Shown piece by piece: positions 18,959 to 25,396 of a DNA stretch of 64,000 nucleotides (within the stretch, counting starts at the first letter, position 1; every line of letters begins with the position of its first letter). Position numbers and translations under genes: made by a program. The DNA lies in assembly GCF_018263905.1 (NCBI RefSeq), contig NZ_JAAFZU010000001.1, positions 298,228-362,227 of the forward strand. The letters are read 5' to 3'. The notes beneath the pieces are model-generated. The model was not told the origin of the DNA, searched no databases, and was given only the letters and a program-made list of their open reading frames with translations. Source of the stretch: Loktanella sp. SALINAS62 (GTDB lineage Bacteria; Pseudomonadota; Alphaproteobacteria; Rhodobacterales; Rhodobacteraceae).

Positions 18959-19569
18959 TGCTGACCCGCCGTGCTGCCCTGCTGGGCGGGGCCGCGGCAT
19001 TGGCCAGCTGTGCCGCACCGCAGACGTCTTCGACCCCTGAACTGATTGCGCAGCGTCAATTCGCGGGTCCCGGCCCGCGCGTTCTGACGCTGTATACCAT
19101 GCGCGGCATCCGCACCGGCAATGGTGCGCATACTGCCGTGTTGATCGACGCCCCCAGCCAGCGGATCATGTTCGATCCCGCCGGATCGTTCCGCCACAGT
19201 TTCATTGCGGAACGCAATGATGTGCTGTTCGGCATGACCCCACAGGTCGAAGCCTATTACGTCTCTTATCATGCCCGCGAAACATACTATGTGCTGGCCC
19301 AAACGGTTCGGGTCACTGATAGCGTGGCCGAACAGGCGGCGCGGTTGTCCCTGACCAACGGTGCGGTATCGCAGGCATTTTGCGCACAAGCGACATCTGG
19401 CCTGCTGCGTCAATTGCCCGGTTTCGATGGATTGCCGCGCACGTTTTCACCAAACCGGCTGGCCAATGCTTTTGGCAAGCTGCCCGGCGTCACGCAACGC
19501 GAATGGCGTGAAAACGACCCCGACAACAAATCACTGGCGCTGGCCGAAATCGAAATGCAGATGCGCTAG
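18958..19569 (+). CDS. Putative lipoprotein of unknown function
   Basis: This 203-residue protein has a twin-arginine-like basic N-terminus (MLTRRAALLGGAAALASCAAP) and a lipobox LASC at residues 15-18, so it is probably an exported lipoprotein. The body contains IRTGNGAHTAVLIDAPSQRIMFDPAGS and conserved His/Cys (HARETYYVLAQ; SQAFCAQATSGLL), a pattern reminiscent of papain-like DUF4105-type folds, though unproven. It is translationally coupled (TGATG) to the oxidase subunit IV gene and converges on azlD with overlapping stops. Confidence 0.8.
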   Translation: MLTRRAALLGGAAALASCAAPQTSSTPELIAQRQFAGPGPRVLTLYTMRGIRTGNGAHTAVLIDAPSQRIMFDPAGSFRHSFIAERNDVLFGMTPQVEAYYVSYHARETYYVLAQTVRVTDSVAEQAARLSLTNGAVSQAFCAQATSGLLRQLPGFDGLPRTFSPNRLANAFGKLPGVTQREWRENDPDNKSLALAEIEMQMR

Positions 19570-19895
19570 AACGCGCCCGTCAGCCACAGCCCCAGATACA
19601 GAGTGGCAAAACCGGTGATCACCGCCGGAAGCACACTGCGCGTCCATAATCCCACCGCCATCGCAACCGCTGCCGCGCACAGCCGCGCGGGGTCGGGCGT
19701 CCCCCCTGTGGCCGCGGGCCACAGCACCAGTGGCGCCACAAGACCCGGCAGAACCGCGACCGGCGTGTAGCGCAGCAGACGCAGCAACAGCGGCGGCATC
19801 GGACGCGTGCCGATCAGCCCCAGAAACGAAAACCGGATCACGAATGTGCCGATCCCCAACAAAAGGATCACTGTCCAGATGGTGGTGTCGCTCAT
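19566..19895 (-). CDS. azlD: AzlD family branched-chain amino acid export subunit
   Basis: AzlD is the small partner of AzlC in branched-chain amino acid (and analogue) export. The protein has 109 residues with four hydrophobic helices and the family segment RFSFLGLIGTRPMPPLLLRLLRYTPVAVLPGLV. ATG at 19895 overlaps the stop of azlC (ATGA). The longer reading frame is antisense or out of frame within azlC. Confidence 0.9.
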   Translation of the reverse strand: MSDTTIWTVILLLGIGTFVIRFSFLGLIGTRPMPPLLLRLLRYTPVAVLPGLVAPLVLWPAATGGTPDPARLCAAAVAMAVGLWTRSVLPAVITGFATLYLGLWLTGAF

Positions 19896-20590
19896 GCCGT
19901 GCGCTCCTCGACGATAACGCCTGCAGCCATGGCACAGGCTGCCGCAATCAGCAGGCCGGTGCCCGACGGCAACCCGATCAGCGCCAACGCGACGACCACC
20001 GACACCAGTGCCGCCACGACATGCGCCAGCGTTCGCAGCATCGGGGCAACCATGGCGATGAATGTGATGGGCAACGCGAAATCCAGTGCCGCCGCCTCTG
20101 GTATCCGCGCGCCCAGCAGCGCCCCCAGCAGCGTCGCCACCACCCAGACCGGTGCGATCGGCGTGGCCACCCCAACGAAAAACGCCATCCGGTCGCGCAC
20201 CGTCATCTGCGGTGCCGCCTCGAACCGGGCCACCCCCGCGACATAGGTCTGGTCGAACAGCAGATAGGACACGCAGGCGCGTTTCCACAGCGGCGCATCA
20301 CCCAAATAGGGCACCAGCGATGCGCTATACATCGCCATCCGCAAATTCACCGCCAGTGCGGCCAGCAGAGTCAGTGCGACGCCCGCATGATCAACGATCA
20401 TCTGCAGCGCCGCGAATTGCGACGCCCCCGCGATGACCAGAACGCTGAATCCCATCGCCTGCCCGATGGTCAGTCCCGCCTCGATCGCCGACACACCGAA
20501 CAAGGCCGCAAACGGTATCGCCACCAGCAGAAATGGCATGCCGTCCCGCACGCCTTGCAAATAAACCGATTTCGCTGTGGCAGAGGCCAT
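19892..20590 (-). CDS. azlC: AzlC family branched-chain amino acid ABC-independent exporter
   Basis: This 232-residue multi-helix membrane protein has the AzlC signatures GVRDGMPFLLVAIPFAALFGVSA near the N-terminus (residues 13-35), GASQFAALQMI and NLRMAMYSASLVPYL. It should form the large subunit of an amino acid exporter with AzlD. The gene starts 56 bases from the divergent fdhD, so both promoters must lie in that short space. Confidence 0.92.
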   Translation of the reverse strand: MASATAKSVYLQGVRDGMPFLLVAIPFAALFGVSAIEAGLTIGQAMGFSVLVIAGASQFAALQMIVDHAGVALTLLAALAVNLRMAMYSASLVPYLGDAPLWKRACVSYLLFDQTYVAGVARFEAAPQMTVRDRMAFFVGVATPIAPVWVVATLLGALLGARIPEAAALDFALPITFIAMVAPMLRTLAHVVAALVSVVVALALIGLPSGTGLLIAAACAMAAGVIVEERTA

Positions 20591-20646: not shown

Positions 20647-21525
20647 TTGGCCACCGCCCAGAACGCAAGCTACCTGATCGGCCCCGCACCGGACGATCCG
20701 CGCCTGACCCGCATCGTCACCGGCACCGACCAGTCAGGTGCTGCGGTCAGCCTGAACGTGGTCGAAGAACGCCCCCTGACGATCTACCTGAACGCACGCG
20801 AAATCGTCACGGCCATGACCATCGGTGACCATCCCACGTATCTCGCTTTGGGCTTCCTGCTCAATCAGGGCATGCTCAAACGCAGCGATCAGGTCACCGG
20901 CGTCGACTATGACGCAGAAATCGAAACCGTCGTCGTGCGCACCCGCGTCCAGACCGACCACGAAGACAAGCTGGCGCGCAAGACCCGGACATCGGGCTGC
21001 GCCGTCGGCACGGTCTTTGGCGACATGATGGCCGGACTCGATGGCGTGACCCTTCCCGATACCTCTGTCCGGACCTCCGATCTTTATAACCTCAGCCACA
21101 CCATCAACCGCACGCCCAGCCTTTATCTGGCCGCCGGCGCGATCCACGGCACAGTGCTGTGCAAGGCCGACCAGCCACTGATCTACATGGAAGACGTCGG
21201 GCGCCACAACGCGGTGGACAAGGTCGCGGGCTGGATGTTTTCCGAACAGCAAGACGCCGGCGACAAGGTGCTTTACACCACGGGCCGCCTGACGTCTGAA
21301 ATGGTGATCAAAACCGCGCTGATGGGAATTCCGACACTGGTGTCGCGCTCTGGCTTCACGGCTTGGGGCGTCGAAATCGCCCAACAGGTCGGCCTGACCC
21401 TGATCGGACGGATGAAAGGGCAGCGATTCGTCTGCCTGTCGGGCGAACACCGTCTGATCCGTGACGCCGACCCCGCAGCACAACCGCCAGAGCCACAAAA
21501 AGCCGGGCGCAAGGCCGCCACATGA
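20647..21525 (+). CDS. fdhD: Formate dehydrogenase accessory sulfurtransferase (TTG start)
   Basis: FdhD transfers sulfur from a cysteine desulfurase to the molybdenum cofactor of formate dehydrogenase. The 292-residue protein has ERPLTIYLNA, a single active-site-loop Cys118 in RKTRTSGCAVG (E. coli has two cysteines here), MEDVGRHNAVDKVAGW and the C-terminal SRSGFTAWGVEIAQ. No ATG precedes the conserved region; TTG at 20647 sits seven bases after AGGAA, while the ATG frame at 20533 is antisense to azlC. It is the first gene of a molybdenum-cofactor cluster. Confidence 0.9.
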   Translation: MATAQNASYLIGPAPDDPRLTRIVTGTDQSGAAVSLNVVEERPLTIYLNAREIVTAMTIGDHPTYLALGFLLNQGMLKRSDQVTGVDYDAEIETVVVRTRVQTDHEDKLARKTRTSGCAVGTVFGDMMAGLDGVTLPDTSVRTSDLYNLSHTINRTPSLYLAAGAIHGTVLCKADQPLIYMEDVGRHNAVDKVAGWMFSEQQDAGDKVLYTTGRLTSEMVIKTALMGIPTLVSRSGFTAWGVEIAQQVGLTLIGRMKGQRFVCLSGEHRLIRDADPAAQPPEPQKAGRKAAT

Positions 21526-21601: not shown

Positions 21602-22183
21602 ATGAACGCCCCGCTGGGTGTCATTCTTGCGGGCGGGCAGGCCACGCGGATGGGCGGCGGCGACAAGGGGCTGTTGCTGCTGGGCCAGACCCGCATCATC
21701 GACCACGTCATCGCGCGTCTCGCGCCGCAGTGTGACGGTCTGGTGCTGAACGCCAACGGCGATCCCGCACGCTTTGCCGCCCTTGGTCTGCCCGTGGCGC
21801 CCGACGGCATGGCGGATTTCCCGGGCCCGCTTGCCGGTGTGCTGGCGGGGCTCGATCACGCGGCGACCACGGGCCACAGTCATATCGTCACTGCCGCCGC
21901 CGATACGCCGTTCCTGCCCTGCGATCTGGTGCCGCAACTGCAACTGGCCGGTGGCGACGCAGGTCTGGCGCTGGCCGCCAGCCCCGGCGGGCGGCAACCG
22001 ACCTTTGGCCTTTGGCCGGTGGCCCTGCGCGGCCCGCTGCGACAGGCGCTGACCGACGGCATCCGCAAGGTCGTGCAGTTCACCCGCGCCCATGACGCGG
22101 GCACCGCCACATTCCCTGACGATGCCGCGTTCTTTAACGTCAATACGCCGGATGATCTGGCCACAGCGCGGGCCATGACATGA
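21602..22183 (+). CDS. mobA: Molybdenum cofactor guanylyltransferase
   Basis: MobA links GMP to Mo-molybdopterin to form the MGD cofactor used by DMSO-reductase-type enzymes such as formate dehydrogenase. The 193-residue protein starts with the nucleotidyltransferase motif GVILAGGQATRMGGGDKGLL and has AAADTPFLPCDLV (metal-binding Asp) and FFNVNTPDDL. It overlaps mobB by four bases (ATGA). The ATG was chosen over the in-frame extension through the intergenic element. Confidence 0.95.
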   Translation: MNAPLGVILAGGQATRMGGGDKGLLLLGQTRIIDHVIARLAPQCDGLVLNANGDPARFAALGLPVAPDGMADFPGPLAGVLAGLDHAATTGHSHIVTAAADTPFLPCDLVPQLQLAGGDAGLALAASPGGRQPTFGLWPVALRGPLRQALTDGIRKVVQFTRAHDAGTATFPDDAAFFNVNTPDDLATARAMT

Positions 22184-22674
22184 ACCTTTATGGCGTTACC
22201 GGATGGAAAAACGCAGGTAAAACCGGCCTGATGGAACGTCTGGTGATGGAATTGGTGCGCCGCGGCCTGACCGTGTCCACCATCAAACACGCCCATCACA
22301 GCGTTGACGTGGACCAGCCGGGCAAGGATTCGCATCGACACCGACAGGCGGGTGCGGATCAGGTGTTGCTTGCCTCGGCCAACCGCTGGGCGTTGATGAC
22401 CGAACTGCGCGGTGCGCCCGAACCGCCCCTGTCAGACCTGCTGGCGCGACTGGACCCCGTCGATCTGGTGCTGGTCGAAGGTTACAAGCGCGACACCCAC
22501 CCCAAGGTCGAAGCCTTTCGCGCCGCCACCGGCAACCCGCTGATCGCCGCGGACGACCCGACCATCCGCCTGATCGCATCCGACACACCGCTCCAAACCG
22601 ACCGCCCTGTCGTCGATCTGGACGACACGACAGCCATCGTCGATTTCATCCTGACCGATCTGGGGATGGCATGA
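22180..22674 (+). CDS. mobB: Molybdopterin-guanine dinucleotide biosynthesis protein B
   Basis: This GTP-binding partner of MobA has 164 residues. The P-loop is GVTGWKNAGKTGLMERLV near the N-terminus, followed by STIKHAHHSVDVDQPGKDSHRH and VLVEGYKRDTHPKVE. It overlaps both neighbours (ATGA at each end), so mobA, mobB and the moeA fusion are one translationally coupled set. Confidence 0.94.
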   Translation: MNLYGVTGWKNAGKTGLMERLVMELVRRGLTVSTIKHAHHSVDVDQPGKDSHRHRQAGADQVLLASANRWALMTELRGAPEPPLSDLLARLDPVDLVLVEGYKRDTHPKVEAFRAATGNPLIAADDPTIRLIASDTPLQTDRPVVDLDDTTAIVDFILTDLGMA

Positions 22675-24821
22675 CCCACGATGCCGCATTTGACACGGTT
22701 CTTGCCGTCGACTGGTCCAGCGGCCACGATCGGGGTGCGGCCCCCAAACAAGATGCGATCTGGACCTGTCTTGCCCGCAGCGGTCAGCCCACTGACCCGG
22801 TCTATCATCGCAATCGGCAGGTCGCAGAAGCCAGCATCGCTGATACCATCGCACAGGAACACGCAGCGGGCCGCCGTGTCCTGGTCATTTTCGATTTGTG
22901 CTTTGCCTATCCTGCGGGGTTTGCGCAGGCCCTGACCGGCACATCCGATCCGCTTGCCGTCTGGGACTGGTTCGAAGAACGGGTCAAGGACAGCAAGCAC
23001 GCCAACAACCGCTTTGATCTTGCGGGACAGATCAACGCGATGTTCCCCGGCATCGGCCCCTTCTGGGGCAACGGCAGACCGCACCACGATGTCGATCATC
23101 TGCCTCGGACACAGAAAACATCCGGCTACGGCGGCCACGGCCTGCCCGAATTCCGCGACACCGACACGGCAGCAAAAGGGGCGCAATCGCCGTTCAAACT
23201 GTCGGGGGTCGGCGTTGTCGGCAGTCAGGTCATCATGGGATTGCCGATGCTGTCACGATTGCGCCGCGGCTTTGGCGCGGACCTGTCTGTCTGGCCCTTC
23301 CAGCCCGCCACAACCCCGATCGTGCTGGCCGAAAGCTATTTTTCGCTCTTGCCCGACGGGCTGGACAGGGACCTGCACCCGATCAAGGATGCCGCCCAAA
23401 CCACCCTTTACGCCACGGCCTTCTCTGCGCTGTCGCAAACGGATATGGCCCAGTGTCTTGATGTGCCAGCATCACAAGAAGGCTGGGTTCTGGGCCTTGG
23501 TAGCCAGCACCTGCTGCGTGCGGCGATGCCAGATCCCGTCGCACCGACAAGCGACAGTGCAAGCGGCACCAAACTGACCCCGCCACCCCTGCGCAACGAT
23601 TGTTTCGCCATGCCGCAGGGCGCACACTGGACGCCGGTCGATGCCGCCCTCGATCATCTGCAAAAGCACTTGTCGCCGGTGACGGGTCAGGACATCATCC
23701 ACGTGACGGGTGCCGCCGGGCGAATCCTTGCCCGCCCGGTCATCGCCGCGCGCAGCCACCCGCCGCACCCCAATGCGGCCGTCGACGGTTACGCCTTTGC
23801 CGGACCACTGCCACCGGGCACACATGACCTGCCGCTGCACCCCGGCCGGTCTGCCGCCGGTGCGCCATTTGCCGGGACCGTGCCGCAGGGACACGCGCTG
23901 CGAATCCTGACCGGTGCGAATATCCCCTCCGGCACCGATACCGTCGTCCTGCAAGAGGACGTGACCGCCAGCGACACCCGCATCGCCCTGCACGGCCCCC
24001 TGAAACAAGGCGCCAATGCCCGCCGCGCCGGAGAGGACATGACCAAAGGCGACATCGTCCTGCCCGCGGGCCGGCGCCTGACGCCCGCCGACCTTGCGAC
24101 CCTTGCCGCCTGCGGCACCGGTGACATCACCGTGCGGCAGCGGCTGCGCGTCGGCGTGCTGTCCACCGGTGACGAATTGCGCGACCCCGGCAGCGTCGTC
24201 GACGATGGCCAGATTTTCGACGCCAACCGCGCCATGCTGCTGGCCGACGTGGCAGGCTGGGGCCATGCGCCCGTCGATCTGGGCCGCGCGCCCGATGACC
24301 GCGACCGCCTGCGCCACATCCTGACGCAGGCCGCCACCCGTTGCGACGCGATCCTGACCTCTGGCGGCGCATCTGCCGGGGACGAAGACCACGTCTCCGC
24401 CCTGCTGGCGACCACCGGCAGCTTTGCCCTGTGGCGTATCGCGGTAAAGCCGGGCCGCCCACTGGCACTGGGGCTGTGGGATGGCGTGCCGGTCTTCGGC
24501 CTGCCGGGCAATCCGGTCGCCGCACAGGTCTGCGCGCTGATCTTTGCCTATCCTGCGCTGGCGGTGCTGGCGGGGGCTGACTGGCAGCCGCCGCAATCGT
24601 TCACCGTGCCCGCCGGGTTCAGCAAATCCAAAAAACCCGGCCGCCGCGAATACCTGCGCGCACGCATCAACGACGGCGCCGCGCAGGTATTCCCCTCCGA
24701 AGGGTCGGGCCGCGTTTCTGGGCTAAGCTGGGCAACCGGGCTGGTTGCATTGCCCGACGACGGCATCGACGTTCGCCCCGGCACCCCGGTCACATTCCTG
24801 CCGTTCACCGGATTTTCATGA
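22671..24821 (+). CDS. moeA: Molybdopterin molybdenumtransferase MoeA with an extra N-terminal DUF429-like domain
   Basis: This is a 716-residue fusion. Residues about 310-716 are a full-length MoeA, which inserts molybdate into adenylylated molybdopterin, with PHPNAAVDGYAFAG, RILTGANIPSGTDTVV, VLSTGDEL, SGGASAGDEDH and KPGRPLALG...GLPGNPVAAQ. Residues 1-285 are a separate domain that starts AVDWSSGHDRG (Asp14) and has IFDLCFAYPAG (Asp75) and VLAESYFSL, resembling RNase H-fold DUF429-type proteins. A short linker (about 287-308) joins them. The gene overlaps mobB and the following acetyltransferase. The role of the N-terminal domain is unknown. Confidence 0.88.
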   Translation: MTHDAAFDTVLAVDWSSGHDRGAAPKQDAIWTCLARSGQPTDPVYHRNRQVAEASIADTIAQEHAAGRRVLVIFDLCFAYPAGFAQALTGTSDPLAVWDWFEERVKDSKHANNRFDLAGQINAMFPGIGPFWGNGRPHHDVDHLPRTQKTSGYGGHGLPEFRDTDTAAKGAQSPFKLSGVGVVGSQVIMGLPMLSRLRRGFGADLSVWPFQPATTPIVLAESYFSLLPDGLDRDLHPIKDAAQTTLYATAFSALSQTDMAQCLDVPASQEGWVLGLGSQHLLRAAMPDPVAPTSDSASGTKLTPPPLRNDCFAMPQGAHWTPVDAALDHLQKHLSPVTGQDIIHVTGAAGRILARPVIAARSHPPHPNAAVDGYAFAGPLPPGTHDLPLHPGRSAAGAPFAGTVPQGHALRILTGANIPSGTDTVVLQEDVTASDTRIALHGPLKQGANARRAGEDMTKGDIVLPAGRRLTPADLATLAACGTGDITVRQRLRVGVLSTGDELRDPGSVVDDGQIFDANRAMLLADVAGWGHAPVDLGRAPDDRDRLRHILTQAATRCDAILTSGGASAGDEDHVSALLATTGSFALWRIAVKPGRPLALGLWDGVPVFGLPGNPVAAQVCALIFAYPALAVLAGADWQPPQSFTVPAGFSKSKKPGRREYLRARINDGAAQVFPSEGSGRVSGLSWATGLVALPDDGIDVRPGTPVTFLPFTGFS

Positions 24822-25396
24822 TCATCAGCCGTGGCGTGCCCACAGCCGACAGATCAGCGGCAGCCCGACTTTACTGGCAGGCCTTCGGCGGCAAGCTGGG
24901 CCGTGTCATGGGCCCAGACGCCCGCGCCCTAGCCTATATCGGGCGGGCCATGCGCAGCGATCACGCGTTGACAGCCCATGATGCAACCGGACGCCTGATC
25001 GGCATCGTTGGTTTCAAAACCCCCGACGGCGCCTTTGTCGAAGGCGGTCTTGCAGACATGCGCGCGGCCTATGGCACCATCGGCGCGCTCTGGCGGGCCG
25101 TGCCACTGGCCCTGCTGGACCGCGATATCGACAATGCACGCTTTTTGATGGACGGTATCTGCGTTCACCCCGATGCACGCGGCCAAGGCGTCGGCACCGC
25201 CCTGCTGGACGCGATCTGCGGCGAAGCACGCCAGCGCGGTTATTCCCATGTGCGCCTTGACGTCATAGATCGCAACACCCGCGCCCGCGCGCTTTACCAA
25301 CGCCTTGGCTTCGTGCCCGTCGCGACCCAGACGATGGGCCCGCTGCGCCATATCTTCGGCTTTGCCAGCAGCACCACGATGGTCAAAACGCTCTGA
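24818..25396 (+). CDS. GNAT family N-acetyltransferase
   Basis: This 192-residue GNAT enzyme uses acetyl-CoA. The P-loop-like motif A is clear (MDGICVHPDARGQGVGTALL, followed by RNTRARALYQRLGF). The N-terminal half (YWQAFGGKLGRVMGP, ALAYIGRAM) is typical of GNATs acting on small molecules or proteins; the substrate cannot be named. The ATGA overlap with moeA makes it the last gene of the molybdenum-cofactor operon, but a functional link is only implied by position. Confidence 0.85.
   Translation: MIISRGVPTADRSAAARLYWQAFGGKLGRVMGPDARALAYIGRAMRSDHALTAHDATGRLIGIVGFKTPDGAFVEGGLADMRAAYGTIGALWRAVPLALLDRDIDNARFLMDGICVHPDARGQGVGTALLDAICGEARQRGYSHVRLDVIDRNTRARALYQRLGFVPVATQTMGPLRHIFGFASSTTMVKTL

Follow-up and report, generated by a model that had tools for sequence, protein, structure and literature searches.

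RNase H-type domains have been described in fusion with enzymes of nucleotide and cofactor metabolism. RelZ of Mycobacterium smegmatis (MS_RHII-RSD, MSMEG_5849) combines a DUF429 domain with a (p)ppGpp synthetase, and RNase HII activity is reported for its DUF429 domain, which is said to cut RNA/DNA hybrids and R-loops (PMC7591505, PMC4429107). The two RelZ domains are described as interdependent, and when purified apart they are reported not to work (PMC7591505). In MSMEG_4305/Rv2228c an RNase HI domain is connected through a variable linker to the vitamin B12 enzyme CobC; from their deletion work the authors conclude that genetic drift most probably fixed the fusion and that its domains are functionally independent in vivo, and they report an influence of CobC on the fused RNase H in vitro (PMC7466739). 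The 64,000-nucleotide stretch of Loktanella sp. SALINAS62 DNA analysed here (hereafter the window) carries a gene that extends this known kind of fusion. It occupies positions 22671-24821 of the forward strand and encodes 716 residues, in which a domain with a predicted RNase H/RuvC-like fold (the N-domain) precedes the molybdenum-insertion enzyme MoeA. Searches of open-licence PubMed Central (PMC) papers turned up no description of such a domain fused to MoeA or CobH.

The window protein compares with these systems as follows. RelZ likewise has an RNase H-like, DUF429-type domain N-terminal to a nucleotide enzyme, but its partner is not a cofactor enzyme, and the likeness is drawn from the papers, in which the domain is called DUF429. 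MSMEG_4305/Rv2228c likewise joins an RNase H domain to a cofactor enzyme, but that domain is a classical RNase HI. The three Pfam MoeA domains are shared with MoeA and the gephyrin E domain (E. coli MoeA, 1fc5 and 1g8l), from which the window protein differs by its extra N-domain and by being the second, mob-operon MoeA copy. Our preferred reading, to which we assign a probability of about 0.5, is that a nuclease-type hydrolase is tethered to MoeA and is dispensable for molybdenum insertion. The protein would then be two independently folding enzymes on one chain. Its C-terminal half would be the MoeA of the mob operon, a second copy beside the other MoeA of the genome. The N-terminal half would be a metal-dependent (two-metal-type) hydrolase with an RNase H fold of the RuvC branch, in which D14, D75 and D240, with E221, would cut a phosphodiester in a nucleic acid or nucleotide; MoeA would not need it to insert molybdenum. 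Originally the domain would have been encoded by a gene of its own, flanked by mobB and moeA in a series of overlapping genes. Merging of these genes would have attached it to MoeA by a flexible linker, in a step that was reversible and occurred more than once.

Searched alone against Pfam, residues 1-310 gave nothing up to E 1. Residues 5-285 matched positions 165-450 of the NCBIfam model NF011066 (PRK14495, 'MobB/unknown domain fusion') with E 1.3e-61 and 209 bits, below the full-length cut-off of 596. The domain is therefore real, and NCBIfam already lists it, as an 'unknown domain'. The neighbouring mobB matches the remainder of the same model (positions 1-162, 195.8 bits); in the window protein the domain is joined to MoeA and not to MobB. 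The MobB fusion itself exists in another genome of the genus (G007), where the domain lies behind MobB in one frame (L031:8458-9867); a second mobB of that genome stands near a domain-less MoeA on another contig (L017).

No known structure was found for the N-domain by sequence, a 23-row profile giving chance-level matches only. AlphaFold2 modelled it from 68 sequences with a mean predicted local distance difference test score (pLDDT) of 95.7 and a predicted template modelling score (pTM) of 0.93. DSSP assigned to the model a strand at 9-14, strands at 30-36 and 44-46, a helix at 49-65, a strand at 70-75, an insertion, a helix at 183-204, a strand at 217-221 and a helix at 239-252. In the model this order of elements (three strands, a helix, a strand and later helices) is that of the RNase H/RuvC type: D14 closes strand 1, D75 closes strand 4 and D240 opens a C-terminal helix, the places where RuvC has its carboxylates. 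In a structure comparison against the PDB most of the best rows were RuvC-type chains with an RNase H-like fold, among them RuvC itself (4ld0; Z 7.0, root mean square deviation 3.0, 127 residues aligned) and Tex (3bzc; Z 6.7), with further matches to YqgF, terminase nucleases and Cas9/Cas12. ASKHA kinases and exopolyphosphatase appeared as weak rows in Foldseek and were missing from the 50 rows of the other PDB comparison, an absence that excludes nothing. We assign the fold because the model, the pattern of residues and the fold matches agree, and not on any one score.

Conservation was counted in 148 of 167 detected loci, those with at least 230 profile positions; 131 rows belonged to subfamily A (profile score >200), which includes the window domain, and 17 to subfamily B. 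D75, E221, D240, R49, R114, W132 and R162 were present in 131/131 subfamily A rows and D14 in 130/131 (one gap), and this conservation was the same in molybdenum cofactor (Moco), cobalamin and other contexts, free-standing copies included. The AVDWSS and IFDLCFAYP segments picked out in the original prediction are present and carry two of these invariant residues, D14 and D75. The 17 fuller subfamily B rows all had D14, D75, E221 and E270; they did not keep R49 (6/17), R114, Q186 or the aligned D240 (6/17).

The original prediction also likened the domain to RNase H-fold DUF429 proteins, a family that Majorek et al. (2014, PMC3985635) assigned to clade D of the RNase H-like superfamily, together with RuvC and YqgF. 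This held for the predicted fold and for a distant kinship. By eye, the motifs follow the same order as in DUF429 (PF04250; COG2410, COG4328, COG4923), with a D in strand 1, D-x-P-x-G-x-P, E-x-H/Y-P and a late D. However, neither the window domain nor any of the 23 alignment members exceeded the Pfam cut-off for PF04250, and direct HHalign comparison with DUF429 gave a probability of 4.7-5.2% (E about 0.008, 20-25 columns), against 0.2% for reversed DUF429. The cut-off and the HHalign result rule out strict membership of DUF429 and leave remote homology. Subfamilies A and B aligned with each other in HHalign at a probability of 100%. Three divergent proteins (L275, L276 and L278, from genomes G467, G402 and G451) exceeded the PF04250 cut-off and matched subfamily B with E 1e-9 to 4e-8 and subfamily A with E 4e-5 to 3e-4 (E for 10,000 sequences); the remaining DUF429 loci matched neither subfamily profile at E 0.01. 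By sequence comparison the N-domain is thus placed as a remote DUF429 relative, connected through intermediate sequences.

The C-terminal half is, by its sequence, a complete MoeA. MoeA_N (residues 322-482), MoCF_biosynth (495-630) and MoeA_C (646-712) followed one another above the Pfam cut-offs, and the closest solved relative was E. coli MoeA (1fc5, E 1.4e-67). The STGDEL motif pairs with E502 in the 1fc5 alignment, and its glutamate is a Q in the 2nqu row. T414, D456, E502, D573 and K593, which we take to be the catalytic residues from the positions in E. coli MoeA, did not vary across 42 aligned fused proteins. The host genome has a second MoeA on a different contig, 38% identical to that of the fused gene, and six PF00384 molybdopterin-oxidoreductase matches.

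That MoeA is fused to an extra N-terminal domain was borne out: the frame runs intact from the ATG at 22671 to the stop ending at 24821 with no internal stop, and the same fusion was found in 66/80 loci. These are the best 80 of at least 507 confirmed relatives, all from Rhodobacterales or other alphaproteobacterial records and close to the query by construction. The ratio of nonsynonymous to synonymous substitution rates over six pairs was 0.07-0.24 for the N-domain and 0.10-0.21 for the MoeA part, and in most pairs the synonymous sites were nearly saturated; both halves are therefore under purifying selection. A sequencing or assembly error that joins two genes, raised in the original prediction as a way in which it could fail, could draw on the 7/80 loci with two separate adjacent genes and on the broken frames in two of the 13 family genomes with the domain fused or adjacent (G006, G016). 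The fused frames in 66 loci from independent genomes and the selection on both halves refute such an artefact, and its probability is practically negligible.

The domain had been predicted to span 285 residues. The domain itself stands, but the domain proper ends near residue 275 and residues 276-321 form a linker. In the full-length model (pTM 0.53) residues 291-317 fell below pLDDT 50 and the two domains took no fixed arrangement. The stretch between G275 and C311 ranged from 10 to 35 residues across the 42 fused proteins. Both halves also exist separately. In the 26 genomes of the window's family that have this type of MoeA, the domain was fused or adjacent in 13, on another contig in 5 (G007, G009, G014, G018 and G021) and without a match in 8. 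Conversely, G028, G029 and G033 (79, 85 and 100% complete) have the domain and only a MoeA of the other type (36-40% identity). Since genomes with the domain can lack this MoeA type and vice versa, each half can do without the other, and the suggestion that the domain acts in cofactor assembly through MoeA has so far found no support. Apparently both halves are kept as separate units on a tether. The independent, non-adjacent halves that the original prediction named as telling against it do occur in those five genomes, although among the 80 nearest Rhodobacterales loci the two are usually adjacent; likewise, the fusion is common in Rhodobacterales, but half of the family genomes with this MoeA (13/26) have no domain beside it.

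The coordinates of the features are collected below. The genes run in the order fdhD, mobA, mobB, domain-MoeA, GNAT (identities by Pfam and NCBIfam), and the coupled GNAT gene of the original prediction, like mobB, overlaps the fused gene by four bases.

Coordinates of the fused gene, its parts and putative active-site codons, the operon genes, and the rarA-linked relatives in other genomes
Feature	Position in window	Strand	Basis
Fused gene: N-domain, linker and MoeA, 716 residues	22671..24821	+	open reading frame, Pfam
N-domain, residues 1-275, RNase H/RuvC-like in the model, remote DUF429 relative	22671..23495	+	AlphaFold2, fold matches, NF011066, conservation
Linker, residues 276-321	23496..23633	+	full-length model; linker comparison across fused proteins
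MoeA half, residues 322-712 (MoeA_N, MoCF_biosynth, MoeA_C)	23634..24806	+	Pfam, E. coli MoeA alignment
D14 codon, end of strand 9-14	22710..22712	+	model, conservation
D75 codon, end of strand 70-75	22893..22895	+	model, conservation
E221 codon, end of strand 217-221	23331..23333	+	model, conservation
D240 codon, start of helix 239-252	23388..23390	+	model, conservation
fdhD, first operon gene	20647..21525	+	Pfam/NCBIfam
mobA, molybdenum cofactor guanylyltransferase	21602..22183	+	NCBIfam
mobB; 4-base overlap with fused gene	22180..22674	+	Pfam/NCBIfam
GNAT acetyltransferase gene; 4-base overlap with fused gene	24818..25396	+	Pfam
rarA-linked sister-subfamily loci L046, L201, L218, L221-L226, L228-L230, L233, L237-L239, L242			

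In the 80 best loci the domain was fused to MoeA in 66, beside a separate MoeA in 7 and without a MoeA nearby in 7. Within 3 kb of the domain we found MobA in 79, MobB in 74, MoeA in 73, FdhD in 72 and a relative of the window's GNAT protein in 27, so that mobA was the most constant of the queried neighbours. The GNAT gene adjoins the domain in some loci that lack MoeA (L037, L040, L130, L136 and L165), and the window's GNAT protein may thus work with the domain instead of with MoeA. Divergent to fdhD are genes for AzlC/AzlD-type transporters, named by eye (19566-20590, reverse strand); an AzlC relative lies within 3 kb of the domain frame in 70 of the 80. Frame length had suggested MobB-domain-MoeA triple fusions in L049 and L050; a Pfam scan of L049 finds no MobB there. 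Four further genomes (G010, G011, G020 and G026; L047, L020, L018 and L022) have frames of 583-595 residues with about 170-180 residues before MoeA, which in L047 are MobB by eye; some relatives may therefore fuse MobB straight to MoeA without the domain.

Beyond the window's family, a profile search of 240 alphaproteobacterial genomes gave domain matches in 56. The 54 of these that lie outside the family comprised 23 with subfamily A and 31 with lower-scoring matches. Ten of the 23 subfamily A copies stand by cobalamin genes, and three of these directly follow CobU. By Pfam, one frame holds both the domain and CbiC (precorrin-8X methylmutase, CobH) in L202, L203 and L205 and, inside the family of the window, in L039 and L041; the next gene is CbiC in L211 and L212, CobU in L042, L204 and L208, CobQ in L214 and CobD in L215. 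The CobH of the window's host, on the same contig, has a frame of only 235 residues and is thus unfused. Of the other 13 copies, four face a CCA-adding enzyme gene, two are near a zinc-type dehydrogenase or an exonuclease III gene, one (L217, on a 3.3 kb contig) has an FdhD-like match 1.75 kb away, and for the last six no queried gene lies within 6 kb. Nearly every genome searched has one subfamily A copy, the exceptions being G386 and G511, with a second partial or split match, and G052, with a fragment. The N-domain is thus widespread in Alphaproteobacteria, lacks a Pfam family and is fused to three different enzymes, MoeA, MobB and CobH. The copies fused or adjacent to cobalamin genes broaden the link to cofactors past molybdenum and go beyond the original prediction, as do the published RNase H-type fusions to a cobalamin enzyme and a (p)ppGpp synthetase and the sister subfamily described next.

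Among the 31 genomes with lower-scoring matches, rarA (MgsA/RarA ATPase) lies within 6 kb of the domain in 17, mostly adjoining and often with crcB; for L046 and L218 Pfam confirmed RarA. In two others crcB alone is present, and the rest, except G222, have none of the queried genes; the match in G482 was not recovered. This sister subfamily, which has no Pfam name, is a candidate nuclease partner of RarA. The exception, G222, carries a CobH frame (L244:7844-9154, reverse strand) that opens with a shrunken copy of the domain; the D14 motif is missing from this copy, which is probably inactive.

The history of the fusion was followed in a quick tree of 103 sequences with support from the Shimodaira-Hasegawa-like approximate likelihood ratio test only; it was thinned to every third fused locus of L090-L169 and omits L040, L045 and L048. 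Moco-context copies of the family formed one group (52 rows, support 93, three in other contexts), and cobalamin-context copies except L039 formed another (22 rows, support 82, half in other contexts). L084 and L085 belong to subfamily A by score, yet fell outside the main A branch. A cautious count from this tree would be two separate moves into cofactor clusters. On the starred branches of the thinned tree the fused-to-MoeA label changes at least nine times; fusion and fission therefore recur within a conserved gene order.

Several results weigh against a nuclease-type hydrolase that is merely tethered to MoeA. The scores behind the fold are modest (Foldseek E 0.022 at best, Z at most 7.2), and the kinship to DUF429 is indirect, as seen in the direct HHalign value; a profile built from 17 ordinary DUF429 proteins, out of 21 loci, finds no relative of the N-domain (best E 0.21). 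If the domain were unrelated to cofactors, it would be odd that it recurs in clusters for Moco and for cobalamin, where its cob neighbours differ from lineage to lineage, and that six of the seven named loci lacking moeA still have mobA with it; for these reasons pure drift is disfavoured and a function on the cofactors themselves is kept alive. The CobH frame in L244 keeps a domain without the D14 motif, so that in at least one case the domain can persist without catalysis. The reported interdependence in RelZ and the reported effect of CobC on its RNase H also suggest that such fusions are not mere tethers (PMC7591505, PMC7466739).

MobA and CobU each attach guanosine monophosphate to a cofactor phosphate. 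The domain might accordingly hydrolyse nucleotide-activated cofactor intermediates or products, such as adenylylated molybdopterin (MPT-AMP), molybdopterin guanine dinucleotide (MGD) or adenosyl-GDP-cobinamide, as a means of proofreading or salvage. Such a role would account for its occurrence in Moco as well as cobalamin clusters, and it agrees with the constancy of MobA, which exceeds that of MoeA (79 against 73 of 80 loci), with the cobalamin neighbours of 10/23 subfamily A copies, three of them directly after CobU, and with the fusions to MoeA, MobB and CobH. The invariant arginines and tryptophan would suit a small-molecule pocket, and for DUF429 domains, fusions with Nudix and with phosphomethylpyrimidine kinase domains are reported (PMC3153485). 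We compared 40 domain-positive genomes from the earlier matches with 30 negatives of at least 2.5 Mb picked by hand, a comparison and not a random sample. CobU was present in 27/40 positive and 17/30 negative genomes, and MobA in 34/40 and 28/30 at E <1e-30, a cut of our own choice (all 70 genomes have a match at E <=0.001, and 46/70 exceed the family cut-off). Presence and absence of CobU and MobA thus gave no association, and we rejected a 'guanylylated-cofactor enzyme' as a universal rule. MoeA itself occurs in 54/56 domain-positive genomes (subfamily A, subfamily B and weak matches pooled; the exceptions are G456 and G512) vs 113/184 negative ones, a difference that we discount because many of the negatives are small genomes. 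Moreover, G343 (100% complete), G512 (92%) and G208 (74%) have a domain with all ten checked residues (L075, L200 and L085) and no CobU, and their MobA-model matches are weak (E 3.6e-4 in G343, 1.1e-4 in G512, 1e-4 to 8e-4 over the three genomes). A guanylylated cofactor as the substrate in every host is therefore unlikely. CobH, moreover, acts before any nucleotide step, which also speaks against a cofactor hydrolase. On balance we regard this alternative as doubtful.

A non-catalytic role, in which the domain would be a scaffold or sensor that gathers cofactor enzymes or senses a nucleotide, is rather unlikely. Three different cofactor enzymes as fusion partners, and the shrunken L244 copy lacking the D14 motif, would fit it, but of 131 sequences, among them free-standing copies, 130 or 131 retain each of the carboxylates, and the full-length model has no fixed arrangement of the domain to MoeA. 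More improbable still is local nuclease action on the operon's own RNA, be it mRNA, leader or R-loop, by which the domain would adjust cofactor synthesis. The RNase H-type model, the position within overlapping genes and the reported removal of R-loops by the DUF429-type RelZ (PMC7591505) point that way; against it, the window held no Rfam family at the gathering threshold, and free copies stand in the unrelated contexts listed above (genes for the CCA-adding enzyme, zinc-type dehydrogenase and exonuclease III). We retain, at the strength given at the outset, the tethered hydrolase that molybdenum insertion would not need.

A broader proposal, which at present we consider improbable, is that an RNase H/RuvC-fold enzyme was recruited to remove or correct the nucleotide part of activated molybdopterin and cobamide intermediates, and that a quality control shared by two cofactor pathways is what its joining to MoeA, MobB and CobH reflects. 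If the domain does act on nucleotide cofactors, this would be new chemistry for the RNase H fold. With the mycobacterial RNase HI-CobC and DUF429-(p)ppGpp synthetase proteins as precedents, this further set of pairings, from a different RNase H-type family, makes it testable in harmless marine bacteria whether the recurrent association of RNase H-type domains with enzymes of cofactor and nucleotide metabolism has a functional reason or is due to drift.

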